Source: Dioscorea cayenensis subsp. rotundata
Taxonomy: Eukaryota; Streptophyta; Magnoliopsida; Dioscoreales; Dioscoreaceae
Direction of reading: 5' to 3'
DNA: 64,000 bases
Assembly (NCBI RefSeq): GCF_009730915.1
Contig: NC_052481.1
Span: forward strand, 4,340,001-4,404,000
The notes beneath the pieces are model-generated. The model had not been told where the DNA came from. It saw nothing but the letters and a program-made list of their open reading frames with translations, and did not search any database. Of the stretch, positions 33,677 through 60,335 are shown piece by piece. Numbering within the stretch: the stretch's first letter is position 1; each line of letters opens with the position of its first letter. The translations under genes were made by a program, and so were the position numbers.

Positions 33677-33957
33677 CTTTTAGATCATGCTGTCATATCA
33701 TAGCAAGGGAATTCTTACCATAGTCTTTTGCAGCATTAACTGTTAAAATATTAGCCTCGCCATTGATCTTCTTCATCTGCTCCTCATTTCCAAATTCACC
33801 AAGAGTTGAAACAACCGCTGCAGTATCAACCAAAAATAATCAGAAATATATAAAAGCATCAATTTTTAGCCACCAAAATAAGGCAGAAACATATAAAAGC
33901 ATCAATCTTTAACTGTTAGGCAGTCATTCCAAAGCCTCACCCTCTTTCCCCCTTGCT

Positions 33958-35657
33958 ATGGCGAGTGGGGGACAAACTTCCCATCCCCCAACCTCTCACC
34001 CTCCTCCTTCAACCTGGGCTCAAGTAGCTTCTTCTGGCACTCGATCCTATGATCCTTCACCACTTCACAACCCTCAGCTGCTCGAAAAGCTGAAGAATTC
34101 CTCTTCTTCCTTCGTTAAGCTTGATGCCGACTCCCTTTCCCGAGCTCATCAAAAGTTTCAGCATGCCCTCTTTGGTAAGTTCTTTGGGAAACCACCCCCA
34201 TTTGACCAAGTGAGGAAATTTCTGATGGACAAATGGGCGATGGTTTGTGACCTCCAAATCTCAGACCTTCCTAATGGGGTTTTGCTAATCCGTTGTGCCG
34301 CTTTCAAAGACATGCAACGACTTCTCACTGAGGGGCCGTGGACTCTCAATGGATTAACCTTACAGCTAGCTCCTTGGAGGCCATTTTTTGAGCCGACATT
34401 CACGAAACTATCCACTGCCGCTGTTTGGGTTCAGCTGTATAACCTTCCTGTCGAGCTGTGGGACGGAGAATCTCTGGACACCATTACTTCTCACTTGGGT
34501 AATCTTTTGAAAGTTGATGAATTTACTCTGAAGTTAACTGGATCCAAATTTGCCAAGGTATGCATCGAAATCGACCTTTCAAAACCCCTTTGCCGTGGTT
34601 TTTGGGTTGGCGATGATACTCATAGGGTGTTCGTTGTGGTTCTACACGAAAGGCTGCCTACGTTCTACTATACTTGTGGGATCATAGGCCATGGTACCAA
34701 CTCTTGTTCTCATGCAACAACAACCGGGGAGAATCGGACTTCTCCATCTCTCCATATTCCATGGGGATGGGTGGTAGGTTCAGTTCGGACCGAGGATGTT
34801 GTTGAGGGAATGGAGATGGATTCTAGTGCCAATAATCCCCAAGACGTTGTTAACTCTGTTGATTTCACACCGGACTCTAAATTTGGTTCTTGGATGTTAG
34901 TCTCCCGCCGGCGTGGTTGTACTCAGGGCCGAGGAGCTGGCCATCGCTCCGATTCGGTGCCTGTTGGCACTGTAGCCAAGGAGAACAGTGCTCCTTCTCT
35001 TCCCCGAGGAGTCCCATCCCGAGGTACATGGGTAGGAGCAAAAAGTCGTGATAGGGGGCGACTCTTTCTCTTCTCGGGCTTCCCATTTTCAATATTATAA
35101 TGCTGATCAAGTTTCAATGGAGGATGATTTGACCCCTTGAGACCCAAACCCTGACATTTCAGCTCCCCTGCCTCCTCGAAATGTCAATCCCACCGTTCTA
35201 TCTGACATAGAAGCCTCCCTCCCTATGCAAACCCAAGTTCCAAGTGAATATGGATAGTTAAAGACCTCTTCTCTCCCTGGCACTCCTCCTATTCCCAACG
35301 TTTCAAAAGTAACCTCATCTATGACCCATTATGGGTCTCCTCCACCTATCAATCATTCTTCGATCTTAAATACAATTAAGTTAGTCGCTTCCCCTTCAGA
35401 GAACCTCCACGCCATGGCTGTTGATCGCATCATCTCGGCCCTTGACGAGGAAAACCCGGAAGGAAGCGATCATGAGGATGAGGATTCGGATGATTCAGAA
35501 GATGCAATGTCTGATGATGATGAAGGTCCTGATGACTCTATGACACTTGTTCAGTACCAGGAAGAAGTTCGTAAAGAAACCTTGGCTCGTAAAAGCTCAC
35601 ACGTGATGGGTTCTTCCTTGAAGAAAGGAAGAATGGACATTGGGGATTATGGTTCTT
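33958..35657 (+). pseudogene. LINE ORF1 (DUF4283 plus zinc knuckle), one frameshift
   Basis: The first 380 codons from the ATG at 33958 are open. They contain a DUF4283-type region (about residues 80-200, including GPWTLNGLTLQLAPWRP and VWVQLYNLPVELWD) and a single CCHC-like knuckle (YTCGIIGHGTNSC, near residue 240). The frame is lost near 35050-35100. An acidic C-terminal part continues in another frame to 35657 (EDEDSDDSEDAMSDDDEG). This gag-like protein would package element RNA. Confidence 0.8.
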
Positions 35658-35754
35658 GAATCTAGATCTATACGTCTTATGTCTACTCTGGTTTCATTTA
35701 TTATGGAAGTCTTCTTTCTCGAATACTTTGTTTTTTCTCCTCTTATCTGTTATA

Positions 35755-38700
35755 TGGCTAATCCGAAGATTATATGCTGGAATTGTAGGGGGATCTCCTC
35801 CAAAGAAACCTCAGATCGTGTTCTTTATTTGCTCAGGACTCATCGGCCTAAGATCATCTGTCTTGTTGAAACGAAAGCTAATGCAAATAGAACTGACCGT
35901 TTTTTCTCTAAAATTTCAAATAATTGGGAATGGGCTGCCTCACTTGCAAATGGATTCTCTGGAGGTATTATTGTCCTATGGGATAAGTCCTTAGGCCATG
36001 TTACCCCCATTATTGTCTCTCGTCGTGCTCTTCATCTTGTTATTTCTTCTAATAATTCTATCAATTGGGTTCTCTCTGTGATTTATAATTCTAATCGTAT
36101 GATCTCTCAGCGTGCCCTTTGGTTGGAATTGTCCATAATGACTAATATTGGCCTTCCTTGGCTCCTTTTGGGCGATTTCAACTCCATTGTCAACAACTCC
36201 GAGCATCGTGGACGGTCTTATCATTATTACTCACATAAAGCAGCTACTTTTTCTGAATCTATAGATAGTAATAATCTTTTTTATTTAAATTTTTCAGGGT
36301 TTCGGTTTACCTGGTGCAATAATCAGGCAGGGACTTCCCGTCGCTGGCTCGTTTAGACCAATGTTTGGTTAATTCTGCTTGGTTTTCTATTTTCTCTGCT
36401 TACTCTTTAACTCACTTACCTCACATCTTTTCTGATCATGCTCCTCTTCTTCTTTCCATAACTCTTAATCCAATCCGAGGTAAACGTTTTTTTCGCTTTA
36501 ATAATTTCTGGCTCGAGTACATTAGGTGTCATGATGCGGTTCGTGAAGCTTGCTCTATTTCCCCTCATGGAAACCCAATGCATGCTTTTGTCCATTTGTT
36601 ATCTCGTATGCATTCTAAAATTGTTTCTTGGAGTGTTGCAGGTCTGACCCCTTTAGATAGAGCTATCAAGGAGACTGAATCTGCAATTAAACTCCTTGAA
36701 GAAGTTGAGGACTTTAACCATGAGTCCAATTCTTCTCTCTCGGAGTTTTATTCCAGGTTTGCTTCTCTTCAATTCCAATATTCTTCTAGATGGGCTCAAA
36801 AGGCTCATTTACTTTGGCTCAAGGATGGTGATAATAATACTGTTTTTTTCACAATTCTGTTCGCATTCGCTCCCATTTCAATGTTATTTTACATATTTAT
36901 GATTTGAATGGTTCTTATGTTACTAACCAAGCAGATATTGAGAGCAGGTTTATTGACTTTTATTCCAATCTATGGAAGGATAATCCCTATATTAATTTTC
37001 TTGATGTTTATAATGCTCTGCCGCATGGCCTTCCTATAATATCTGATTTGGATGGTTTTAACCTTATTAGAGAAGTTTCTCGTGATGAGGTTTTTTTTGC
37101 TCTTCATGAACTCCCCTTTGGTAAGTCCCCTGGTCTTGATGGTTTTAATGCAGAATTTTATAAGTTCTTCTGGTCTGAATTAGGTGATCATCTATTTGAA
37201 GCCATACTGTACTTTTTTGACAATACTATTATGCCAGACTCTTGGGGGAGGACTTATATAACTCTTATTCCGAAAAAAGATCATCCAAGGTATGTTACTG
37301 ATTATCGCCCTATTTCATTGTGCAATGTTTGCTATAAAATTGTTTCTAAAATCCTTGAGAATCGGCTTCAGTGTGTTCTTCCCAAATTAGTTAGCCGTAA
37401 GCAGGTCAGGTTTGTTTCTGGCTGTTGTACTTTTGATAACATCATAGCCCTTCAAGAGACTGTTCATTCTTTGGAACATACCATTAATGACCCTCCTAGG
37501 ATGTTAACCAAAATTAACATTGAAAAGGCATATGATACACTTAGTTGGAGTGCAATTCTTGCCACGTTAGCTAAAATGAACTTTCCTAATACTTGGAATT
37601 CTTGGATTGCTGCTTGTCTTAAGTCTAGCTCTTTCTCTATTCTCATTAATGGATCCCCTTCGACCTGGATTTCCTCTTCTAGAGGTATTCGACAAGGTGA
37701 TCCAATTTCTTCCTATCTGTTTATTTTGGTGTCCCAAAATCTTTCCTCTTTACTTAATCAAGCTTTGAATTTTGGCATGATTCCAAGATTTGATACTAGA
37801 TTGTCTTATAATTTTAATCATCTTATGTATGCTAATGATTAGGTTATTATTACCAGAGCTTCTAGATCTGTTGCCAAAAATATCAAACTCTGTATGGATT
37901 TCTATGCTTCTTTGACTGGTCAAAAAGCTAACGCTTCTAAATCGTCTATTTATTTACCTTCCTGGTTCAACTCTAGGGTTGCTAGAAGTATTAATGCTAT
38001 TTTGTCTTACCCTATTACTTCTTTTCCCCTCACTTATCTTGGTGTTTTGATTTCCCCTTTTAAGTTGAATGCGTCTTATTTTAAACCTCTCGTTGATCGA
38101 ATTAACCGTACCTGTGCTAGGTGGAAGAATCTCAAACTTTCTTTAGCACCCAAATCCACTCAGATTAATTCTTCCCTTCTTGCCATTCCCACCTATTATT
38201 TATCTGTTTATCCTATCCCTGACAACATTCTTAAGGACATCACTAAAATTGTTAGGAATTTCTTTTGGCATAAATGTGGCAATTGAAAGGGCATCTACGC
38301 AGTTTCTTGGAGTCACATTACTGAACAAAAAGCTGAGGGGGGTCTTGCTATCCGAAATCTGTTACTTGTCAAACACTCTCTTAAGGCTAAACATGTTTTC
38401 AATTATTTGAATTCTGATGATTTTATTTGGGTTCAAATTGCTCATCTCAAATATGGTTGCATTAATTTTTGGAAAGATTCTATTCCTAGAAATTGTTCTT
38501 GGTTCTTCAAAGGCCTGTATCAAACTGCTTATGTTACCAAGCCTTTTTGTGGGATTAAAACTGTTAACCCTTCTATTACATCTTTCCTTTATGATCCCTG
38601 GTGTGGAGAGATTCATCTTGCATTCAAACCGACCTTTCTAAATATGCAGTCTGATCTTGAATCTCTTCTTTACTCCGATCTGTGTATTGGCAATAGTTGG

Positions 38701-39630
38701 AATTATGTTTATCTCCATAGTATATTTGGCACTCATGCTGGTGAGTTTTTCTCTAGACTGGGTAATATTGATTACACTTGCAACAATAATTGGGTCTGGA
38801 CTCCTAAATCGACTAATTTTAAGATCACTTCTACTGTTTATCATTTTCTTAATCGCAATGTTTTAGAGCCCTCCTCTTGGGCTGGTTGGAGCAAGATTTG
38901 GTCTCTCAAAGTCATGCCGAGAGTGAAGCATTTCTTATGGTTATTATTTAATGGCAGGCTTGCCACTGCAGACTTTCTCTATTCCATTAATCTGGGCCCT
39001 AGGAGGATGTGTATCCTTTGCAATCTTGATTATGAGAATCCTGAACATCTTTTTCATACTTGCTGTAAATCTCAAGGTCTTTGGGCCCTCATCTCCAACT
39101 TGGTCATGGGCAACTGGCTTGTTCAAGCCAATTTCTCCTTAAAAGTAAAATCTGTTATTGCTTTAACTGTCTGGTTCCTTTGGAAAGCCAGGTACGATGC
39201 CATCTATCGGGATGCTAAAGCAAATTATCAAATCATCGCTCACAAAGCTATTTCCTATGCTAATAATATGCACAGTGTTGGCAATGACTCGAGCAGGAAG
39301 ATGATCATTAGTAACTTTTGCAATCTTGATGATCCATTCCTTTTTACTGCTTCAATTTGGAACTATTCCAACCAGGTTTGCAAGGGTGGCTTCTTCATTT
39401 CTTCTTCTAACTTTGCTATTTCCTTTCCAGGCAGCCATGTTTTCACAGCTGATAACCCTACTGCTGCTGAATTGAATAATTTGGTCACTGCTCTCCAGCT
39501 TGTTATTGAACACCAACTTAGGATGCAAATAATTTTCATTGTTGACTCCAATATATTGACCTTGTTAACGAATTCCAGCAATGCTTGCTCTTGGCATTTT
39601 CATCCTGTGATCAATGAAGGTTGCTTCTAA
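35755..39630 (+). pseudogene. LINE ORF2 (endonuclease, reverse transcriptase, RNase H), broken
   Basis: ATG at 35755 starts MANPKIICWNCRGI, the endonuclease N-terminus. LVETKAN and GDFNSIVNNSEH are catalytic-region motifs. After a stop at 36355 the frame continues through the RT: LPFGKSPGLDGFNAEFYK near 37110, IPKKDHPRYVTDYRPISL near 37270, KINIEKAYDTLSW near 37510 and GIRQGDPISSYLFIL near 37690. The active-site box reads YAND followed directly by a stop at 37840. A zinc-binding region (CILCNLDYENPEHLFHTC) lies near 39010 and an RNase H-like tail near 39440-39600. Stops at 36355, 36905, 37840 and 38284 make it non-functional. Confidence 0.85.
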
Positions 39631-49693: not shown

Positions 49694-50194
49694 ATTATTC
49701 ATCTGCAGATAAGCTAATATTTCTGCATGAATTTGTTTGTATTGTGTCAAATTTTCTCATCTTCTTCTGTACACTGTATTTGGAAATATCGATTTTTTGT
49801 CGAATAGTGTTTGTAATCCACATTAGTGTAATTTATATTGTTAAAGAAATTTGTATTTACTGTGATAGAAATCATCTTTATTTGTATTCTAAGAAAACAC
49901 CAATATTTATTTTTTTAAAAAAAAAGGAATATAACTACTGTTTTTCTATATTTTTCATAAGTAAATATCTTAATATAATTTTTTGGGGTGTATTTATATT
50001 TAGTTAGGGACTGTTGGATTAACCTCCGATGACTATAATTCATTTGTTAATATTATTCATAAATACAAAATAGTGTTAAATAGTATCACACAATAATTTA
50101 ATATAGTAATTTTATACAATATTTATATAAATAATAGTCATTAGATCTTATTGAACAACGCATCTACATAAATAGACACATAATTTAAACTAAT
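49694..50194. other. 3' flank of the phosphorylase gene, non-coding
   Basis: AT-rich sequence containing the gene's transcript end (not fixed) and the target site of the composite MULE. No gene is supported. Confidence 0.5.
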
Positions 50195-50203
50195 TTATAT
50201 TTA
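50195..50203. repeat. 9-bp target site duplication, left copy (TTATATTTA)
   Basis: Identical to 60025-60033. The length fits Mutator-superfamily insertion, and both copies directly border matching terminal inverted repeats. Confidence 0.8.
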
Positions 50204-51265
50204 GGGAAAATTACTGTTTATCCCTCGTGAATTTCAAAAATTCTCAAACAGTCCCTCCAATTTTGGCAAACCCCAGACAACCGTCCCGTTATTGTTTAAC
50301 TTCCCTTTTACCGTCTACTGTTCACTTGAAATGCGAACATATTATGAAATTTCATTTTTGCCCTTGAAAATGGTGGGGAAAAACGGTCACTCACATCATG
50401 TCCAATCTCTATACATACAATTTTACTGGTTTTTTTGGTGACTTTTGTCAAACAAAATTTAAAAGGCTCATCACATCTTCTTCTTCTTCTTTTTCTTATT
50501 CTCCTCATTTGGTTTGTTATATTTGAATTCTGCCGGTTTCTTGATAATGTTAGAATTTCTTCGATTCGAGGGCTATTGTTCACGGCGCTAACTCCTTGGG
50601 AATTGGTGTTAGCTTAACTTAAATACGTGAGCGATTGGTCTTGATGTTCCCCGTGTCAGAGCCGATGGATATAAAATGGTTTGTCCAATAGAAAACGAGA
50701 TTGACTTCCAGCGGATGTGTCATTGTTGATCTTGTCGAGACAGACGCTGTGGCATTGTCGAATCCTACTGAAAATGAATTTTTCTCGTTGTAAGATTCTT
50801 CTCTTTTATGCTTATCTAGTTGTATAAGTTGATTACCGTTTAACGTCACCTGTCTCTGTTTAAATACATTATTTTTATAACAATTGTCTTCTTCGTTTAA
50901 TTTATTTGTCAGTATTTAACTATTTGCATTACCGTTTAAAATTGTAATGTATCGTTTAAACATATTATGTCTCTACTTAAAATATTTTCTGTTCCGTTTA
51001 AACTAAAGTATTGCCAGGTGGCCAATGGCAAATTTATGGTATCCCGTGCACAAGAATTAATGACGGCATTAAATTCTATATCTCGTTATGGTATCCCATG
51101 CACAAGAATTTATAGCAAATTTATTCTTTCTCGAATCTGAAGCGTCAACCGGCTTACGGACTTCACACCATAAATGAGAAGAAAGACCACTTCCCCTGAA
51201 CACCCCCTCCTTCTCTTACTCTGCTTCTTCTCGGATGAGTTTCATCTTCATGTGTCCAGGATATT

Positions 51266-51496
51266 CGTTTAAAGTATGTGTCGTGATCATCCTCTTCTGG
51301 AGAATCGATCACGCAACAAGTTAAACTTTCTTTTCCTATTCAAGTTAGAAAGCCCGCCTAATTGCTTAAATAAGGAGGATGATGGGCAAGCAATTAAGCG
51401 GGTATTTTGACTTGATCAGGACAAGAAAGTTTTCACGCATTGCTTGATTGCGGAGGATTTTCCGGAGAGGGTGACCACGACACATACTTTAAAACG
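51266..51496. repeat. Imperfect long inverted repeat (arms about 110 bp)
   Basis: The left arm starts CGTTTAAAGTATGTGTCGTG and the right arm ends CACGACACATACTTTAAAACG. Pairing continues inward with mismatches (ATCATCCTCTTCTGGAGAAT against the complement of the right arm) to a short loop near 51380. It lies in the intron-like part of the deleted MULE copy. It could be a small foldback element or a hairpin-RNA source. Confidence 0.75.
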
Positions 51497-51859
51497 AAAT
51501 TGACATTTATCACTTGAGAATTGTTCTCAGAGTTTAAAAAAAGTTCCTTAGTGTGCAAATATTATTGTCTTCGTTTAACTGTTTAACTGCCTTTTTTTAA
51601 TTGTTCGTGTTCTCCGTTGTACAGGTTCAAGTTGATGCGCATGTTATGCAATCGCCGTGAGCATTCGAAGGTATAGATACTTGTTGAGGAAATCCGAAAT
51701 CTTAATAGACGAACTAGGATAGACTCGCAAGTGTCCGATGTCTGTGAAGACATTGTAAATGTTGTGGATGTTGTAAATGTTGTAAATATTTTATTTGAAA
51801 TGAAGCAAACGTATCTAAGTGTGAACGTTTGATATTTAATCAAAGGCCATTGTTAATGT

Positions 51860-52575
51860 TTAAATATTATAAATGAAACAAACTTATTTGAGTGTCAACC
51901 TTTGATATTTAAGCATTTTTAGTAACAAAAAAGGGCATTGTAAACAAACAAAATGTTAAACAAAATCGTCTTACTACTTAAACAGTGACAACGGTGTTTA
52001 AACAAAAAATAAATATGTGTAAACAGTGACAACGGTTTAAACAAAAAAATAAATATGTTTAAACGATATACAAATTATTTAAACAGTGAACCGACAGTTT
52101 AAAGAATATATATAATTGTTTAAACATAAAAAGGTTGACATTTAAACAGAGATCTATGAGGTACCCAAGAGGATTGATGGAATGCCTGTAACACAATGTT
52201 TTGGAAAAATATCCATCTTCAACACAATGTCGCAGAAAACATTCAATTTAAACAATCACATATATTTTAAAACAATTAAATCAAAATATTTAAACAGTTT
52301 ACATATTGGTTTAAACGACAATTAAGAATTATTTTAAACAGTGAGCAAGCAAGCTGCTTAAGTGTTCTCTTCATGGAGGCTCTGTCAGTGAACACAATGT
52401 CAGTAAAAGCATTCAGTTTAAACAATAACATATATTGTTAAATAGTGAAATGATAATATTTAAACGGTTTACATATTTGTTTAAACTATATAAAATGATT
52501 TTAAATAGTGAACCAATATATTAAAGACTATATCATATTTGTTAAACATTAAAGATTGATATTTAAACAGAGAGA
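51860..52575. repeat. TTTAAAC-motif array, block 1
   Basis: Roughly twenty copies of (T)TTAAAC(A/G), often extended to TTTAAACAGTGA or TTTAAACAGAGA, spaced about 20-40 bp apart. On the plus strand the motif reads mostly TTAAACA, matching the orientation in the minus-strand Ulp1 gene's introns. Confidence 0.85.
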
Positions 52576-53367
52576 ATCATGATAAGTGGAGTACTTTCCT
52601 TTGAGCGATGACAAGTTGGCTTCTATCGTCACTTGCTTACTTCCCGCCGCTTCTCGCTTGCAGTCGACCGGTCGCTTGCAAGGACTTCACACTGCAGCAT
52701 CGTCCTTACAAGCGAAGAAAAACTTCGAGACAATGGTTGAAAGCGGCAATGGTGGAAAGCGACAATGGTGGAAAACGAAGAAGAATTATGAGCCAAGGAG
52801 CCAGTAATGATTGTCTCTAGGGATTAACTCTTGTCGGTCATTTCAAGTGGGTCCATGTAATAAAATACCTTTTTTGCCATTTAAAATGGTGGGAAAAATA
52901 CCGCCCAATCATATCATGTCTGACTTTATGCATACAGTTGCGTACTTTTTTGTGAAACACATTTTAGAAGGCTCTTTACATCATCTACTTCTTTTTCTTC
53001 TTCTTCTTCTTCTTCTTCTTCTTCTCATTTAGTTTGTTTGATTCGAGTTCAGTAGTTATATTATGGATAGTTTTTGTGATATTGCTATATACAACGGGGA
53101 GGGAAAAGTGCTAATGTTTACGGCGCTGACTTTTTGGGAGTCGGTGTTAGCTGAGATATGTGAGCGATGGGGTTTCGATGTTTCCCGTGTGAGGGTGAAG
53201 TTTATCACACCCGATGGGTATAAAACGGCTTGTCCAATCAAAAACGATGTCGACTTCCAGCGGATGTATCACGTTCACTCAATCTTCAAATTTTCTGTAG
53301 TCAATCTTGTTGTGGAGAAAGACGATATGGCATTATCGAATCCTACTGAAAATGAGTTTTTCTCGTT

Positions 53368-53580
53368 GTAAGATTATTCTCTTTTATGTTTATCTAGTTG
53401 TATAAGTTCATTACGGTTTAAGTTTAACAGGCTCTGTTTAAATATATTATGATTGCAATTAAATTTTATCTTCATCGTGTAACTCTTTGACTTAACGTTT
53501 AAATTATGATTTTATCATTTAAGCACGTTATGTCTCTGTTTAACTTATGGATGGTTTCGTTTAAACTGAAGTGTTGGCAG
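53368..53580. repeat. TTTAAAC-motif array in transposase intron 1
   Basis: Copies read CTGTTTAA, CGTTTAAA, CTGTTTAAC and CGTTTAAAC on the transposase sense strand, about every 25-35 bp through the whole 213-bp intron. Confidence 0.8.
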
Positions 53581-54852
53581 GAATTCAGATTCTGCAAGCG
53601 CTCCCCGTCAACCCCATGGTGAACCTGACGGTGTGGGATGCCTTCCTTCCTCGTCAGATCATTCTGAAGTGTTGTCATTGGATATCGAACAACGTTTTGA
53701 AGGTGCTGAACATTTCAGGGACGCACTTCAAAATTTTGCAATCAAATGGAATTTCGACTTCAAATTCATAAAGAACGAGAAACACCGGGTGACTGTGGAA
53801 TGAGATGCCGTTGGTTGTCAATGGCGTCTTCATGCATCAAAAGAATATAATAAAAATACTTTCAAAATAAAGACAATGAACCCGTCACACACTTGCAGTG
53901 GTGGAGTGGGATCGGCCTCACACCCGAAAGCGTCCAAAAAATGGGTAAGCGCACGGGTGATTCAGAAACTCAAAGACCGGCCCTTGTATAAAGTCATCGA
54001 CATTCAGAAGGATATGCTGCGGGAACATGGTGTCCACATTCTATACAAGCAGATTTGGTTTGGAAAAGAGCATGCCCGGGTGGTGCTCGACGGTATCGAC
54101 ATCTCCAGCTATGATTTGTTGCTTTGGTACGTGGATAAGGTGGTTGAGACAAACCCCGGCAGCATTGCGATTGTGGAAAGAGACGGTGAGCGATTTAAAC
54201 GTGTATTCTTTTCTTTCAGAGCGTGTATTGTTGGATTCAAGAAGGCTTGCAGGTCACTGCTGTTTGTCGATGGTACCCACCTCCTTGGAAAGTATCGGGG
54301 TACTCTACTGGGTGCTACAGGCAAAGATGGAAACAATGGTTTCTTCCACGTCACCTTCGGTATTGTCGACAACGAGACCGATGCCAATTGGACTTGGTTC
54401 ATATCCAAGTTAGGTGATGCTTTATACAAGGAAGGAGATTATCATGAGATAATTACATTCGTCTCGGACAGGTCCAAGGGCCTTGTGAACTCTATTGCGA
54501 GAGTCTTCCCTTCTTCCCCACATACATACTGTCTTCGACACTTGGAGGCCAATTTCATGAAAGCCAACGTCAAATTAGGGAAGGCATTGAGAGAGGACTG
54601 CTGGTTTATATACTTTCGTATTGCTTGGGCATCCACGGCTAAAGATTTCAATGATACCGTGAATGAACTGCAGGCCACATCACCCGAAGTCCATCACTGG
54701 TTGATTAATAAATCGGACATGGCACATTGGTCGAATTATCTGTTCAGAGGCGAACATTGGGGTGAGATGTATTCCAATGTCATAGAGTCGTTCAATGCTT
54801 GGATCAAAGAAGCTCGGCATTTGCCGGTAACGAAGATGGTCGACTCCATAAG

Positions 54853-55051
54853 GTATTCGAATGTTCATTTTCACTTACGAATTCGTATTATCCTTTAAAA
54901 TAGTTTATAAATATTCAAATATATTTCTCTGCGTTTAACCATCTACATCATTGTTTAATTTATGATAATACTGTTTAATAAAGTGTGTTTATGTTTAAAT
55001 ATCAATGTCTTCGCTTAACCTTGTCTGAGAATTGTGTTGTACGCTGTACAG
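54853..55051. repeat. TTTAAAC-motif array in transposase intron 2
   Basis: GCGTTTAACC, TTGTTTAATT, CTGTTTAATA, ATGTTTAAAT and CGCTTAACC follow one another in sense orientation in a 199-bp intron. Confidence 0.75.
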
Positions 55052-55599
55052 GTTCAAGTTGATGCGCATGTTATGCAACTGCCGTGAGAAAACGAACAAA
55101 TGGGAGACCTACTTGTGCCTGGGCATACATTCGAAGGTGGAGATACTTGTGGAGGATAGCCAAAATCTTCGTGTTGGTCGTTGTATCAATAATCGTTATG
55201 AAGTGATTGACCAGTGCAGCTACTCTGTAGATCTTGCCATCAGAACATGCTCATGTCGCAGGTGGCAAGTTTATGGTATCCCTTGTAAACACGCTTGCGC
55301 TGCAATAATGCAGACAGACACCAACGTTCCTCGATTTATTAGCGGCTACTTCACCGTCGACAATTATAAATTGGCATATAAGGAAGCTATATTCTCCATA
55401 CCCGACGATGACAAGCCCACGGACGGAAATCATGAACTGCGTATGTGACCGCCTGTGACGAGAAGGCAACCTGGGCATCCTAGGCGAAAGAGGATCGAGT
55501 CACAAGCCTTTAAGGTCCGCGAGTTACGTTGCAGCCGCTGCCATGGCTCCGGTCACAATCGCAGATCTTGCAATGAAACTGTCGCCGACTAGCCATTAC

Positions 55600-55875
55600 A
55601 AAACAGCTGATTTTTAAAAAGAAACAAACTTAATTGTGTGCGAACTTTTCATTTTTAAACAGAGAAAACCTTATTCTTACAGTTAACACATGTATTAAAT
55701 AGAGACATTATTATTTTGAACGTTAAATAGTTATTTTTACAAGTGACTAGTTCTTCTTAAACTGTAACATGGAAATTTAAACAATGGCATTGATAGTTAA
55801 ACAATTATACTTAAAATTAAACAATGAAAGTGCAAGTTAAACAATGATACTGGAAGGTTAAAAAAAGAGTCAAGT
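55600..55875. repeat. TTTAAAC-motif array between the transposase and Ulp1 genes
   Basis: About ten copies, nearly all reading TTAAACAATG or TTAAACAGAG on the plus strand. This is the sense orientation for the convergent Ulp1 gene, not for the transposase. Confidence 0.8.
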
Positions 55876-56734
55876 ATATAAATATAGATACATGTAAATT
55901 TACATTGACAAAATTTGTCATGTTCTTCGAAAACAATGAATTGAGTTTAAATTGGTTTACATTTGAAACTAAGACAACGTATTCTATGAATCCGCTTTCA
56001 AACACTCCCCTTTGGCAGTGATGCCGGCTGCCCTCCCCTCCTTAAGTATGCGGGAAGCATACTTTAATCGCAGATAAGGGACGTCCGTCTGCGGTAGCCG
56101 TAGCTTCTCATCTGCGAGTAACTGCTCGATAAACTGCATCACATATACGGCGCAGTCGACACTTTCTTGTTTTTGTCGTGGGGTTTCAGTGTCATGAATA
56201 AGTGGGTACTTTGCGGTCGCCGACTCGCCGAACTCAATGTCGATACAAAGGTCGAATAAGTTCCGCTGTGGAGGTATACAAGTTCATATTAGAATACCGG
56301 TTATTTACCCAACACTATTACTCAAACACAAATTATTAAAGCACTTACCATGTCTAGCGCGTCTTTATCGTATTCTTTGCTTTGGCATGAAGAATAATGC
56401 ATGTATTCTTGTTTGTCATTATCAAGGACGATGATATGAAGTGGTCATTCATAATTATCGGGAGGATGATAATTTCAACATCATGCAAGTTGCACGCGGC
56501 ATCTCCGATCATAGCCATAGTAGTAACATGTGCGTCTTCCTGCATTGACATAAACATCGCCAGTGGTCATGTAATGGAGGCGCGCTTCTTATAACGATAT
56601 GGCACTATTGTCAGCGAATTTTGGATTATACATACGAAAGCGTCCATCACATCGTCTGCGACCATCTCCTTCCCCTCAAGCAGATCGAATAACCTAGACC
56701 GTGTGAGGCTGACAGAGTCATTCTTCCACACGAC

Positions 56735-56960
56735 AGTGCTGCGGTTAAACGGTAACAGAGATATGTAAACAATATTGTAAATATTTAACTAATACATCAA
56801 CCGTTTAAATTCTATGTCGAATATTTAAACGGTTACTATATAAATTAAATGGTAAAATATAATAGTTTAAATTCTATCTGGAATAGTTAAACATTAAATA
56901 TATAACTTAAAGGGTAACATGTAATAGTTTAAACAATATCATAAAAACTTCAAACTTACT
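56735..56960. repeat. TTTAAAC-motif array inside the Ulp1 gene (probable intron)
   Basis: About ten copies with mixed extension (TTAAACGGTAAC, ATTTAAACGG, AGTTTAAATTCTAT). Both orientations occur here, unlike the other blocks. Confidence 0.7.
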
Positions 56961-58124
56961 TGTCCAAAGGGCAATTGAGGAAGATCCTTATCAACTCCTG
57001 TTCGTACTTGTTGAGTCACGATTGGCCAACGTATTTTTTCTTCTTCGGAATAAAGACTTTCCGAACTTCTTCTAATTTTTTATTGGCATTGATCTTCTCT
57101 CTCGTCGTCATTTCGGCGGCATTCCCTTGACCCTCGTCAACTGCTGTTTTGGGATCATCATGTTGCACTGTTGTTGACGGTTGTCGGTGTTTAGCACCAG
57201 CATAATCTTCCTTCGATGCGGGCACAACAGCAGCATCAAGCGGAGACATATCCTTACATGTTTCTTGTTGTTGTGGGATTGTGTCTGCCTTCGATGCGGC
57301 AATGTCGGCCGTTGGTTCCACCGTGACTATGATTTTGTTGACAATAGAGTCAACGCCCTTCTCAACCGTGGCCACGGCAACAACATCAATGGGAGACACA
57401 ATGTTAGCTGGTTCTTATTCTTTAGGGATTGTGTCCATCTTTGATGCCGCACTGTCAGCCGCCCGTTCCACCGGGTTCATGACAGAGTCATTGATCTTAT
57501 CAACCGCGGCAATGGCAACACCATCTGTGATCTCCTCCACCGTGACGGTCATGTCAGCAACGGTAACACCATCAACAGCCGATGGTGCTGCTATTGTTTC
57601 ATCATCAACCGGTGGTGGAGACAGAGGTATTATTGTTTTCCTCTTTTTCGCAAGCCTCTTCGAATGAGGTCGTTTTCGAATGGCCTCCCCGATGATGTCG
57701 TCATCGTCAAAATCCGACGCCGCGTCTGTCCAGTATGCTTCATTTGTTCGGAGGGACAACGCAGTCGATTGTGACCGGCCTTCCAGCCTCAACCCTAGCG
57801 ACAAGCCGAGGGAACTCGGTCATCAATATCTGGCAAGCCTGCATAAGAGTTGTAGTGACTTCCTTGCCTAGTGCTGTCAGGGGCGCTGCCACGGTCGGGG
57901 GGCTGCCACGATCGGGGGGACTGTCGATGTCGTCGTCGGTAGGGGTGTTACAATTTGGCGGGGTAGGGGAGGGCTTTCTCCGGCGTCGAGCGGGCACAGA
58001 AGAGGTTGCCCTATCATCTTGCCTTCGAGCAAGTGGTTCCGGAGCAATAGCATCGAACCACGGTTGGCCCGAACAAATATATCTTCATCAGCATTCGCCG
58101 AAACCAGCTCAGGAAACTAACATG

Positions 58125-58330
58125 TGTAAACCAAACAATTTAGCGAAATCATTCAGTTTAAACAATAAAAACTATAGTTAAACATTGAACTTATATATTT
58201 AAACATTATAACATAAACGTAAACAGAGAACAAAAGTTTTAAACATTGAAGATACTTTTTAAATGGTAAATGAACAAAGTTAAACGATAAATAATATGTT
58301 TAAACATTAACGTCTACTGTTAAACACATT
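58125..58330. repeat. TTTAAAC-motif array inside the Ulp1 gene (probable intron)
   Basis: Nine or more copies, mostly reading TTAAACATT or TTAAACAGAG on the plus strand, that is CTGTTTAA in the sense of the gene. Confidence 0.8.
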
Positions 58331-59194
58331 GTTCATGATTTATTACCTCTTTTCCTTCGAGAGATGACAAACTGGTTTCTATCGTCGCTTGCTTCCGGTA
58401 AGTATTTTCACTGTAGCACAGCATCCTTGGAATCTTGTAGAAACGGACTTTTTTTCTGATTCCGGTCAACTCGTAAAACCAGATGTTAAGCGCGACCGTG
58501 CAACCCTTGATATACCCTGTGTTGGTCTTCTTCCCCGCGCATCTAGCTTGCACTCGAGCGGCTGCTTGTGGAATGTCCTCCATAAGCCACTTGTGTGTCG
58601 CCTGCGCCCATGCGTATCGCCCTATGCCAGGTAGATCATCGACATAATCAACGATCCAGTTAGGAACCGAGCAGGAGGTATTTGGGAAGAGGATTGTACC
58701 CATGATGTACACCATCAGTAGTTTCACAAAATTTTCTTCTTTTCCCCTCTGTCCAACGAGTTGATGAAGAGTGCTCCTGATGCAGTCTCTGTATCTCTCG
58801 TAGGTTTTGGATAAATACCTTTCTTCGAAAGCTGAGCGTGTTTTCTTCTTTTGAAACACGACTGCGTCTCCATCGCAACGCAGACCAAGAACGAGGCCCA
58901 CATCTTCAGGCTTGAAAGTCAGCATGCTTTCCCCGATCCTGAATTTATTGGTGCGGCTATCGTACCTTTACAACAGAGAATCAAGAAGGGCCCGCTCTTG
59001 GAATACAGCTTCCAACTCAGTGAATGCTGCAAACGGTGTCCTTCGGATGATCTCCCAGTGTCGAGGGATCATGCGAACTTTCAATTCAGCCATGGTCTCC
59101 ACTACCGGTGTCAAGTAGAATCGCCATTAACTAGATTGACCGCTATAATCACAAGCCTGCGACAATAACAGCACATTCAGCCAGGCGTATTCAC

Positions 59195-59385
59195 AAATTG
59201 TTAAGCGGAAATATAAGTTGTTAAATGATAAACTCTCAATTCTTAAACAGTGATATCACTTGTTAAACAGAGACCTATATTATTAAATAGGGATGCCAAT
59301 ATTTAAACAGAGACGACAAAACTTAAACGGTAAAAGCTCTTCTTTTAAACGGAGACCTCATTTATACAACTGCAACCATATCAAT
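59195..59385. repeat. TTTAAAC-motif array upstream of the Ulp1 gene
   Basis: Seven to nine copies such as CTTAAACAGTGATA, TTAAACAGAGACC and TTTAAACGGAGACC in one orientation, directly upstream of the ATG at 59093. Confidence 0.8.
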
Positions 59386-60024
59386 TGAAAGGGGAAACGT
59401 ATATTATAAACATTACACAAATCACAACAATCGAAAAACTATTTCGATCGTGTACACAGACGAAAATGTAAAACAAAACAAAACCCTAGCCGAGAAATCT
59501 CCCTGCAGACTAACAAAACCCCAGCCGATAAATTCCCCTGCAGGCTTCAATGTCTTCTAATAAAAACAAAATTACAAAACAAAACCGAAAAATGTTTCTT
59601 TGTAACAGAATAGTTAACATAAAACCATAATCAATACCTTAGATTGCAAACTGATGAAATGCTGAATACTTGCGCGGGACTTCTCCTTCGAGACACTGGT
59701 GGCAAGGGAAAAGCTGAATTTTACAGAGGATGTGCAAAAATGGCTAGAGACGCGAGTTGAGAGAAGACAAGCAAACGGCTCAAATGGCTGTAGCCTAACA
59801 ACCCCCCTACTTCCTCTCACACCGTCGAAATGGCTGCAGCCACGACTTCCCGTGCAAAGGTATTTTTGTCCATAAAATTTAAAAATCACTCCGTTAACTA
59901 CCGTTACATACTTTGGGGGTTTCAAAATCATGGAGTGTTAAAGGAAGGGGGTTTTGGGGATTACAAAATTAGGGGGATTTTTTGGCAATATGACAAACTT
60001 AGGGGATTTTCTGGCAATTTCCAC

Positions 60025-60033
60025 TTATATTTA
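60025..60033. repeat. 9-bp target site duplication, right copy (TTATATTTA)
   Basis: Matches 50195-50203 exactly and borders the right terminus of the composite MULE. Confidence 0.8.
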
Positions 60034-60335
60034 ACTACATAAATAAGCAGATAATTTAAAGCAATTTATATTTATGAAGTTATGAACTTTGACAAGAGTA
60101 AATATGCAAAATTTCCTAAAATTTTATTTTTAATATAATAAAAGGATTATTTAAAGAAAATGTAAAATTAAACTATTTAAATTAAATAAATTATAAATTT
60201 AATTTTCAAAAAAAAAAAGTTGCACAACCTTGAGAACCGGGGTTACTGGGGACTTGAAAGATCATTCTCAGACAATCCAACGGTTGATATTCTCAGGATC
60301 AAGATCCAACGGCTGGAAAGCCATTAAATTCCTTC

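Follow-up and report, generated by a model that had tools for sequence, protein, structure and literature searches.

What is a short word, TTTAAAC, doing across the noncoding parts of a plant transposon, and what might read it? The question is raised by a composite Mutator-like element (MULE) at 50204..60024 (no strand assigned; ends read by eye) in a 64,000-nucleotide stretch of the Dioscorea cayenensis subsp. rotundata genome, hereafter the window (contig NC_052481.1, 4,340,001 to 4,404,000). The element carries a transposase gene and, convergent with it, a gene combining a DUF1985 domain with an Ulp1 (Peptidase_C48) domain. We consider it very probable that the arrays of this word are binding sites of a DUF1985-Ulp1 protein of the VANC/KIU type, encoded by the same transposon family; both the binding and the demethylation that would follow are inferred from sequence. 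This reading follows from the window element, which shows the six sequence features of a VANC system that were tested.

The word is greatly in excess outside exons. In 5,187 bp of noncoding element, TTTAAAC occurs 52 times (27 plus, 25 minus) versus 4.0 expected from dinucleotide shuffles (300 per segment), while the 4,624 bp of exons, with borders placed by eye from GT...AG sites and reading frames, hold one occurrence versus 0.54 expected. For TTAAAC, the counts are 79 versus 10.0 expected in noncoding sequence and 1 versus 1.8 in exons. A preliminary description of the locus had stated that TTTAAAC fills every intron and spacer and is almost absent from exons, with one clear exon case near 54190. 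The comparison with shuffled sequence bears out the noncoding excess and the near-absence from exons, and the case near 54190 is indeed the sole exon match. The word "every" does not hold: TTAAAC is missing from the 64-bp intron 56286-56349 and from the stretch 52601-53063, and a matrix scan finds no site in 59357-60024, the last 670 bp of the element. The matrix (14 bp, trained on the noncoding parts of the element) detects 84 noncoding sites with the consensus (A/G/T)(T/G)TTAAAC(A/G)(G/A)(T/A)(G/A)A; across the whole window it gives 86 sites inside the element, none in exons, versus 57 in about 53 kb outside it.

Sites occur in all eight stretches in which they had been reported, and most segments use a single strand. 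The first part of the element, 50204-50831, has only two lone sites (50210 and 50288). Minus-strand sites alone make up an array of eight at 50832..51003, in a left copy of transposase intron 1, and a scatter of five through the left middle part (51261..51588), as well as the arrays in transposase intron 1 (seven sites, 53410..53566) and intron 2 (six, 54887..55020). Plus-strand sites alone form the arrays in the tail-to-tail spacer between the genes (ten sites, 55612..55869), in the intron behind the DUF1985 exon (eight, 20-21 bp apart, 58156..58311) and in the 5' flank of the Ulp1 gene (seven, 59199..59356). The exceptions are the left spacer (plus-oriented array, 51852..52574; 23 sites, 19 plus and 4 minus) and the second Ulp1-gene intron (plus-oriented, 56743..56940; ten sites, 7 plus and 3 minus). 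Because TTTAAAC is nearly palindromic, this polarity is visible only with the asymmetric tail of the word. The earlier claim that polarity follows gene direction is thereby supported (plus/minus 0/7 and 0/6 in the transposase introns, 8/0 and 7/3 in the Ulp1-gene introns), and the word is mostly antisense to the host gene in the introns of both genes. The tail-to-tail spacer sites (10/0) are oriented against the Ulp1 gene and with the transposase gene. As the two genes are convergent, "antisense to the gene" and "outward-pointing" describe the same arrangement in the window.

The sites also keep a strict spacing. Distances between sites of the same orientation in the window element fall at 20-22, 40-42, 60-62, 80-82, 101-102 and 122 bp, with a best period of 20.3 bp and a strength of 0.80 (periods of 8-40 in steps of 0.1); in 2,000 control sets with sites shifted by up to 12 bp, the maximum strength was 0.26 (steps of 0.5). 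The period is two helical turns, and the looser spacing of about 20-40 bp given previously should be replaced by this grid. Sites of opposite orientation obey it too: with distances taken from one TTAA centre to the next, all 25 such pairs no more than 64 bp apart fall at 20-23, 40-43 or 60-63 bp. Genome-wide, TTAAACR pairs number 27,093 at 20-22 bp, versus 419 at 15-17 bp and 423 at 25-27 bp; the same 20-22 bp pattern read backwards gives 713. Tandem Repeats Finder reports units of 20, 40, 61 and 62 bp in the window arrays, and growth by duplication in such units can preserve the grid.

The coding content points to the same kind of system. The transposase gene (53064..55592, plus strand; exons by eye at about 53064-53364, 53582-54850 and 55053-55592) matches the Pfam MULE domain (E 1.5e-19) and a SWIM finger (E 3.5e-10), the latter pairing being a mark of VANC/KIU-type VANDAL elements. 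Its long frame at 53804 has a stop codon ahead of it, which makes it probable that this copy is dead. The VANC-like gene (56005..59096, minus strand; borders by eye) contains a DUF1985/PMD exon at 58320-58964 and a C48 (Ulp1) catalytic end at 56005-56283, and no Pfam match was found in its middle exons; the two domains are assigned to one gene by their order and strand. The second VANC/KIU-type feature, DUF1985, is present narrowly in this copy (E 3.9e-8, 33.8 bits versus a Pfam cut-off of 35.1; PMD, E 1.5e-11), and sister copies exceed the cut-off, for example L065 (the same place as L006) with 39.7 bits. Peptidase_C48 within the DUF1985 gene, as in KIU-type elements, is scored at E 2e-6 and 28.2 bits versus a cut-off of 20.7. 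The reading frame of this gene in the window copy also appears to be interrupted by stops, as judged from borders set by eye.

The ends resemble those of a VANDAL as well. The element is flanked by a 9-bp target-site duplication, TTATATTTA, at 50195..50203 on the left and 60025..60033 on the right (neither with a strand), and terminates with ...CAATTTCCAC at 60024. Nine base pairs is the target duplication size of VANDALs. The terminal inverted repeats are short and imperfect, reading GGGAAAATTACTG... and GTGGAAATTGCCAG... inward (by eye); degenerate terminal inverted repeats are a VANDAL feature (PMC10398659).

In Arabidopsis, the VANC proteins with which VANDAL MULEs counteract silencing carry DUF1985 (Hosaka 2017, PMC5735166). 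There, VANC21 binds YAGTATTAY, which is dense and in a single orientation, mainly in the noncoding parts of VANDAL21, and induces DNA methylation loss; VANC6 does likewise through other words (PMC5735166). Our element resembles VANDAL21 and VANDAL6 in encoding a DUF1985 protein, in having dense short words as noncoding tandem repeats with one orientation (stated for VANC21) and in words that vary between families. It differs in the words themselves, which are YAGTATTAY and AGTTGTCC/AGTTGTAC there and TTAAACRGWGA, TATACACAGGAA and TTAAG(C/T)G here, in the Ulp1 domain inside its gene, and in the 20.3-bp grid, spacing being absent from the portion of that paper covered. Binding is also reported there, whereas here it is predicted.

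The KIU (Kaonashi) VANDALs are also close to our element. According to a 2026 review citing the 2022 work of Sasaki, these Ulp1-carrying VANDALs recognise specific motifs in the noncoding regions of other KIU VANDALs, and their VANC genes act in a VANC-like manner on KIU elements (PMC13317346). The preliminary description had known of no such account for Ulp1-bearing MULEs, and this review contradicts it. Our element shares with that group an Ulp1-carrying VANC gene within a MULE and motifs in noncoding regions; it comes from another genome, and the likeness refers to gene type and noncoding motifs, apart from words and spacing. Ulp1-domain MULEs are also mentioned, briefly, in melon, rice and grape, and the resemblance to these is limited to the Ulp1 domain (PMC13317346). 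The kind of system is therefore already known, and what we add are the words, the strict two-turn grid and three protein-word sets in one genome. The Ulp1 MULE of melon is named CUMULE. In the KIU system, motif sequence, density and helical periodicity are said to set specificity, reportedly in a 2022 study by Sasaki. TTTAAAC as a MULE motif was described in none of the matches listed by a shallow literature search.

To see whether the pattern belongs to the family, we turned to other copies. Searches of the genome with the DUF1985 exon (150 scored out of 5,644 first-look candidates) and with PF09331 (150 scored out of 455) each contributed 30 loci; three places were in both, leaving 57 distinct loci among the 60. 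We then applied a k-mer grid test that presupposes no word, in place of a simple autocorrelation that was weak in introns, to two regions of the DUF1985 gene, its 5' flank and the intron that follows the DUF1985 exon, each compared with 20 shuffles. A 20-bp gridded word scored above all 20 shuffles in 54 of the 60 loci (51 of the 57 distinct ones), so other family copies do carry such arrays. The partial loci L001 and L002 were kept out of the grid test, tree, mismatch comparison and matrix counts, and L044, L053 and L065, which are the same places as L028, L016 and L006, out of the last three. Candidate words AAGTCC, ACTAGG and TCCCCA, tried for other loci, formed no 20-bp array.

The word differs between groups of copies. 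Class A (43 distinct loci, including the window's own) has TTAAACRGWGA. Class B (six loci at 45-54% identity) has TATACACAGGAA, which lacks TTAA yet keeps the grid, and carries TTATACACAGGAA at the same two places as class A, mostly 20-23 bp apart or at multiples of this. Class C (two loci at 66-68% identity) has TTAAG(C/T)G in a 20-bp register; in L069, a class-C transposase half, TTAAG is present in 13 of the 19 sites detected by the A matrix. Classes were assigned by the analyst from word searches and the grid test, with L051 (best word TTAAGCG) placed in A. In a DUF1985 tree of 57 rows, with bootstrap not settled and a midpoint root only, A (43), B (6), C (2) and the loci with no array (6) each form one group, which requires three changes, the minimum possible; class C adjoins class A. 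The word thus changes between subfamilies alongside the VANC-like protein, as a correlation only.

Orientation is equally consistent among these copies. Of the 584 class-A sites in the 43 class-A loci, 574 are antisense and 10 sense, and 35 of these loci have antisense sites only; 12 matches lie inside DUF1985 exons. All 62 class-B sites are antisense in the six class-B loci, the same loci that trained the B matrix. Among four further class-A transposase halves, L033 and L034 repeat the window pattern with a single exception each, a minus site within the plus half; L035 follows it for the most part, and L036 is mixed. The class-B halves L067 and L068 show the window polarity with the B word, from which L068 departs at a single minus site within its plus half. 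The word contains CAG, which resembles the end of a splice acceptor, and its antisense placement may do no more than exclude this CAG from the sense strand of introns.

The cores of the word are also conserved. Across 39 class-A copies, core mismatch is 0.051 in the intron and 0.073 in the flank, compared with 0.219 for the spacer in both regions and 0.097 for the DUF1985 exon; this comparison omitted the diverged class-A loci L047, L051, L054 and L060 and all class-B, class-C and array-free loci. Cores thus diverge 3-4 times less than the spacer. Since sites were chosen in one copy and compared in the others, neutrality predicts spacer-like divergence. An array also occurs in an element with no detected gene. 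A 2.4-kb element at L072:1601-4023, one example chosen for its dense TTAAACR pairs in the genome-wide count, has ends matching those of the window element (79% over 107 bp and 73% over 190 bp) and 39 sites, 38 of them plus, largely in period-20 tandem repeats. Queries for transposase, C48 and DUF1985 (five in all, the one for transposase exon 1 being in the wrong frame) found nothing in it by tblastn at E 0.01, and it fits a target served by the protein of another copy.

How might such a system work? The DUF1985-Ulp1 protein would land on the dense arrays in introns, spacers and flanks, and a site every 20.3 bp would place neighbouring molecules on one face of the helix, able to bind side by side. 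Bound arrays would lose DNA methylation and the element would be derepressed in cis, with other copies carrying the same word derepressed in trans. In exons, constraint on the encoded protein would keep the word out. The arrays would lengthen as units of 20, 40 or about 61 bp are duplicated in tandem, keeping the grid, and protein and word would change together between subfamilies. More speculatively, and in our view less likely than not, the protein may coat the arrays as a regular one-sided polymer, one molecule for every two helical turns. The 20.3-bp repeat would then be set by protein-protein contacts common to the subfamilies, only the word would differ, and specificity would come from a long in-phase row, giving at least three private codes in one genome.

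Several observations weigh against this explanation. Six DUF1985 loci forming one clade (L037, L041, L042, L045, L061 and L064) have no gridded word in the flank and first intron, and L070, beside the array-free L041, holds C48 and transposase matches, that is, an Ulp1 MULE in the array-free clade. The gene can therefore exist without such an array; the clade has either lost the system or has one with another kind of target. Class C comprises only two loci, and the matrices are not fully class-specific: 19 sites in the 43 class-A loci are picked up by the B matrix (14 sense, 5 antisense), the A matrix finds 2 sites in class-B loci and 12 in class-C loci, and in the array-free clade there are 6 matches to the A matrix and 15 to the B matrix. 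The DUF1985 score of the window copy is slightly below the Pfam cut-off. The tail of the word is weakly conserved (mismatch 0.176 in the intron and 0.146 in the flank), and homogenisation among copies may contribute to the likeness of the cores. Finally, clade-wise word change would also be expected without selection, by mere descent; what speaks for selection is only that the grid is retained and the cores are conserved.

Binding by the DUF1985-Ulp1 protein must also be compared with other explanations of the arrays. The preliminary description had suggested transposase-binding sites, and the idea of dispersed protein-binding sites survives in our reading, with the likely binder changed to the DUF1985 (VANC-like) product of the Ulp1 gene. 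That the words instead serve the transposase, spread through the element and aiding transposition, seems to us very unlikely. The L072 element, in which arrays and both ends of the family occur without a detectable coding match, would suit it, as would the fact that the words of a class would then be read by a protein encoded in all its autonomous copies. The class-B transposase has diverged too (main exon 55-62% identical), so divergence alone does not decide between the two binders. However, the roughly 600 bp next to each end of the window element contain no array, only the lone sites at 50210 and 50288, and published precedent assigns such sites to VANC (PMC5735166).

An element of the sense-strand RNA (CTGTTTAA), acting in splicing or export, would account for a word that is antisense in both genes. 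We give it even less credence, because arrays also occur in the Ulp1 5' flank, in the tail-to-tail spacer and in the 2.4-kb L072 element without a detected coding match; the 20.3-bp grid common to both orientations also fits DNA better than RNA. Just as improbable are neutral tandem repeats, the products of replication slippage that do no harm outside coding sequence. As slippage would predict, tandem units of 20, 40 and about 61 bp can be detected, but the 20-bp grid persists with different words in classes B and C, and the conserved cores amid diverging spacers of the 39 copies disfavour a neutral replication product. A rotational nucleosome-positioning or bending signal from regularly placed TTAA shares the two-helical-turn spacing. 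We regard it as the most remote of these explanations: the class-B word has no TTAA and still keeps the grid, there is information in the letters outside TTAA, and nearly all same-orientation distances skip the odd turns.

The left 2.6 kb of the element has a structure of its own. A degenerate, internally deleted copy of the same family lies at 50322..52638 (plus strand), where self-comparison pairs 50322-51018 with 52838-53581, 51607-51703 with 55034-55169, and 52406-52638 with 58146-58394. From the transposase side it retains the 5' region, exon 1, intron 1 and the intron 2/exon 3 junction, and from the Ulp1-gene side intron 1 and the edge of the DUF1985 exon. Within it, 51264-51498 is an imperfect inverted repeat that matches its own complement (71.5% over about 240 bp). 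In the middle exons of the Ulp1 gene, 57220-57525 contains a tandem segment duplication (57220-57387 against 57370-57525, 69%, by self-comparison); VANC proteins are reported to have peptide motifs in tandem within their variable part (PMC5735166). Outside the element, a 40-bp stretch is repeated at 87.5% in 50164-50203 and 60035-60074, adjoining the target duplication on both sides, as if the empty site had resembled a two-unit tandem repeat. Further away, plus-strand open frames at 33913-39630 look, by eye, like a non-LTR retrotransposon.

If the arrays are indeed sites of the DUF1985-Ulp1 protein, one 584-Mb genome would contain at least three pairings of an anti-silencing protein with its target word, all sharing one common grid. 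With so many copies (150 scored among 5,644 first-look candidates), natural variants of word, spacing and protein are available. It would then become possible to test directly how a protein made by a transposon singles out entire elements while leaving host genes alone, and how the protein changes in step with its word.

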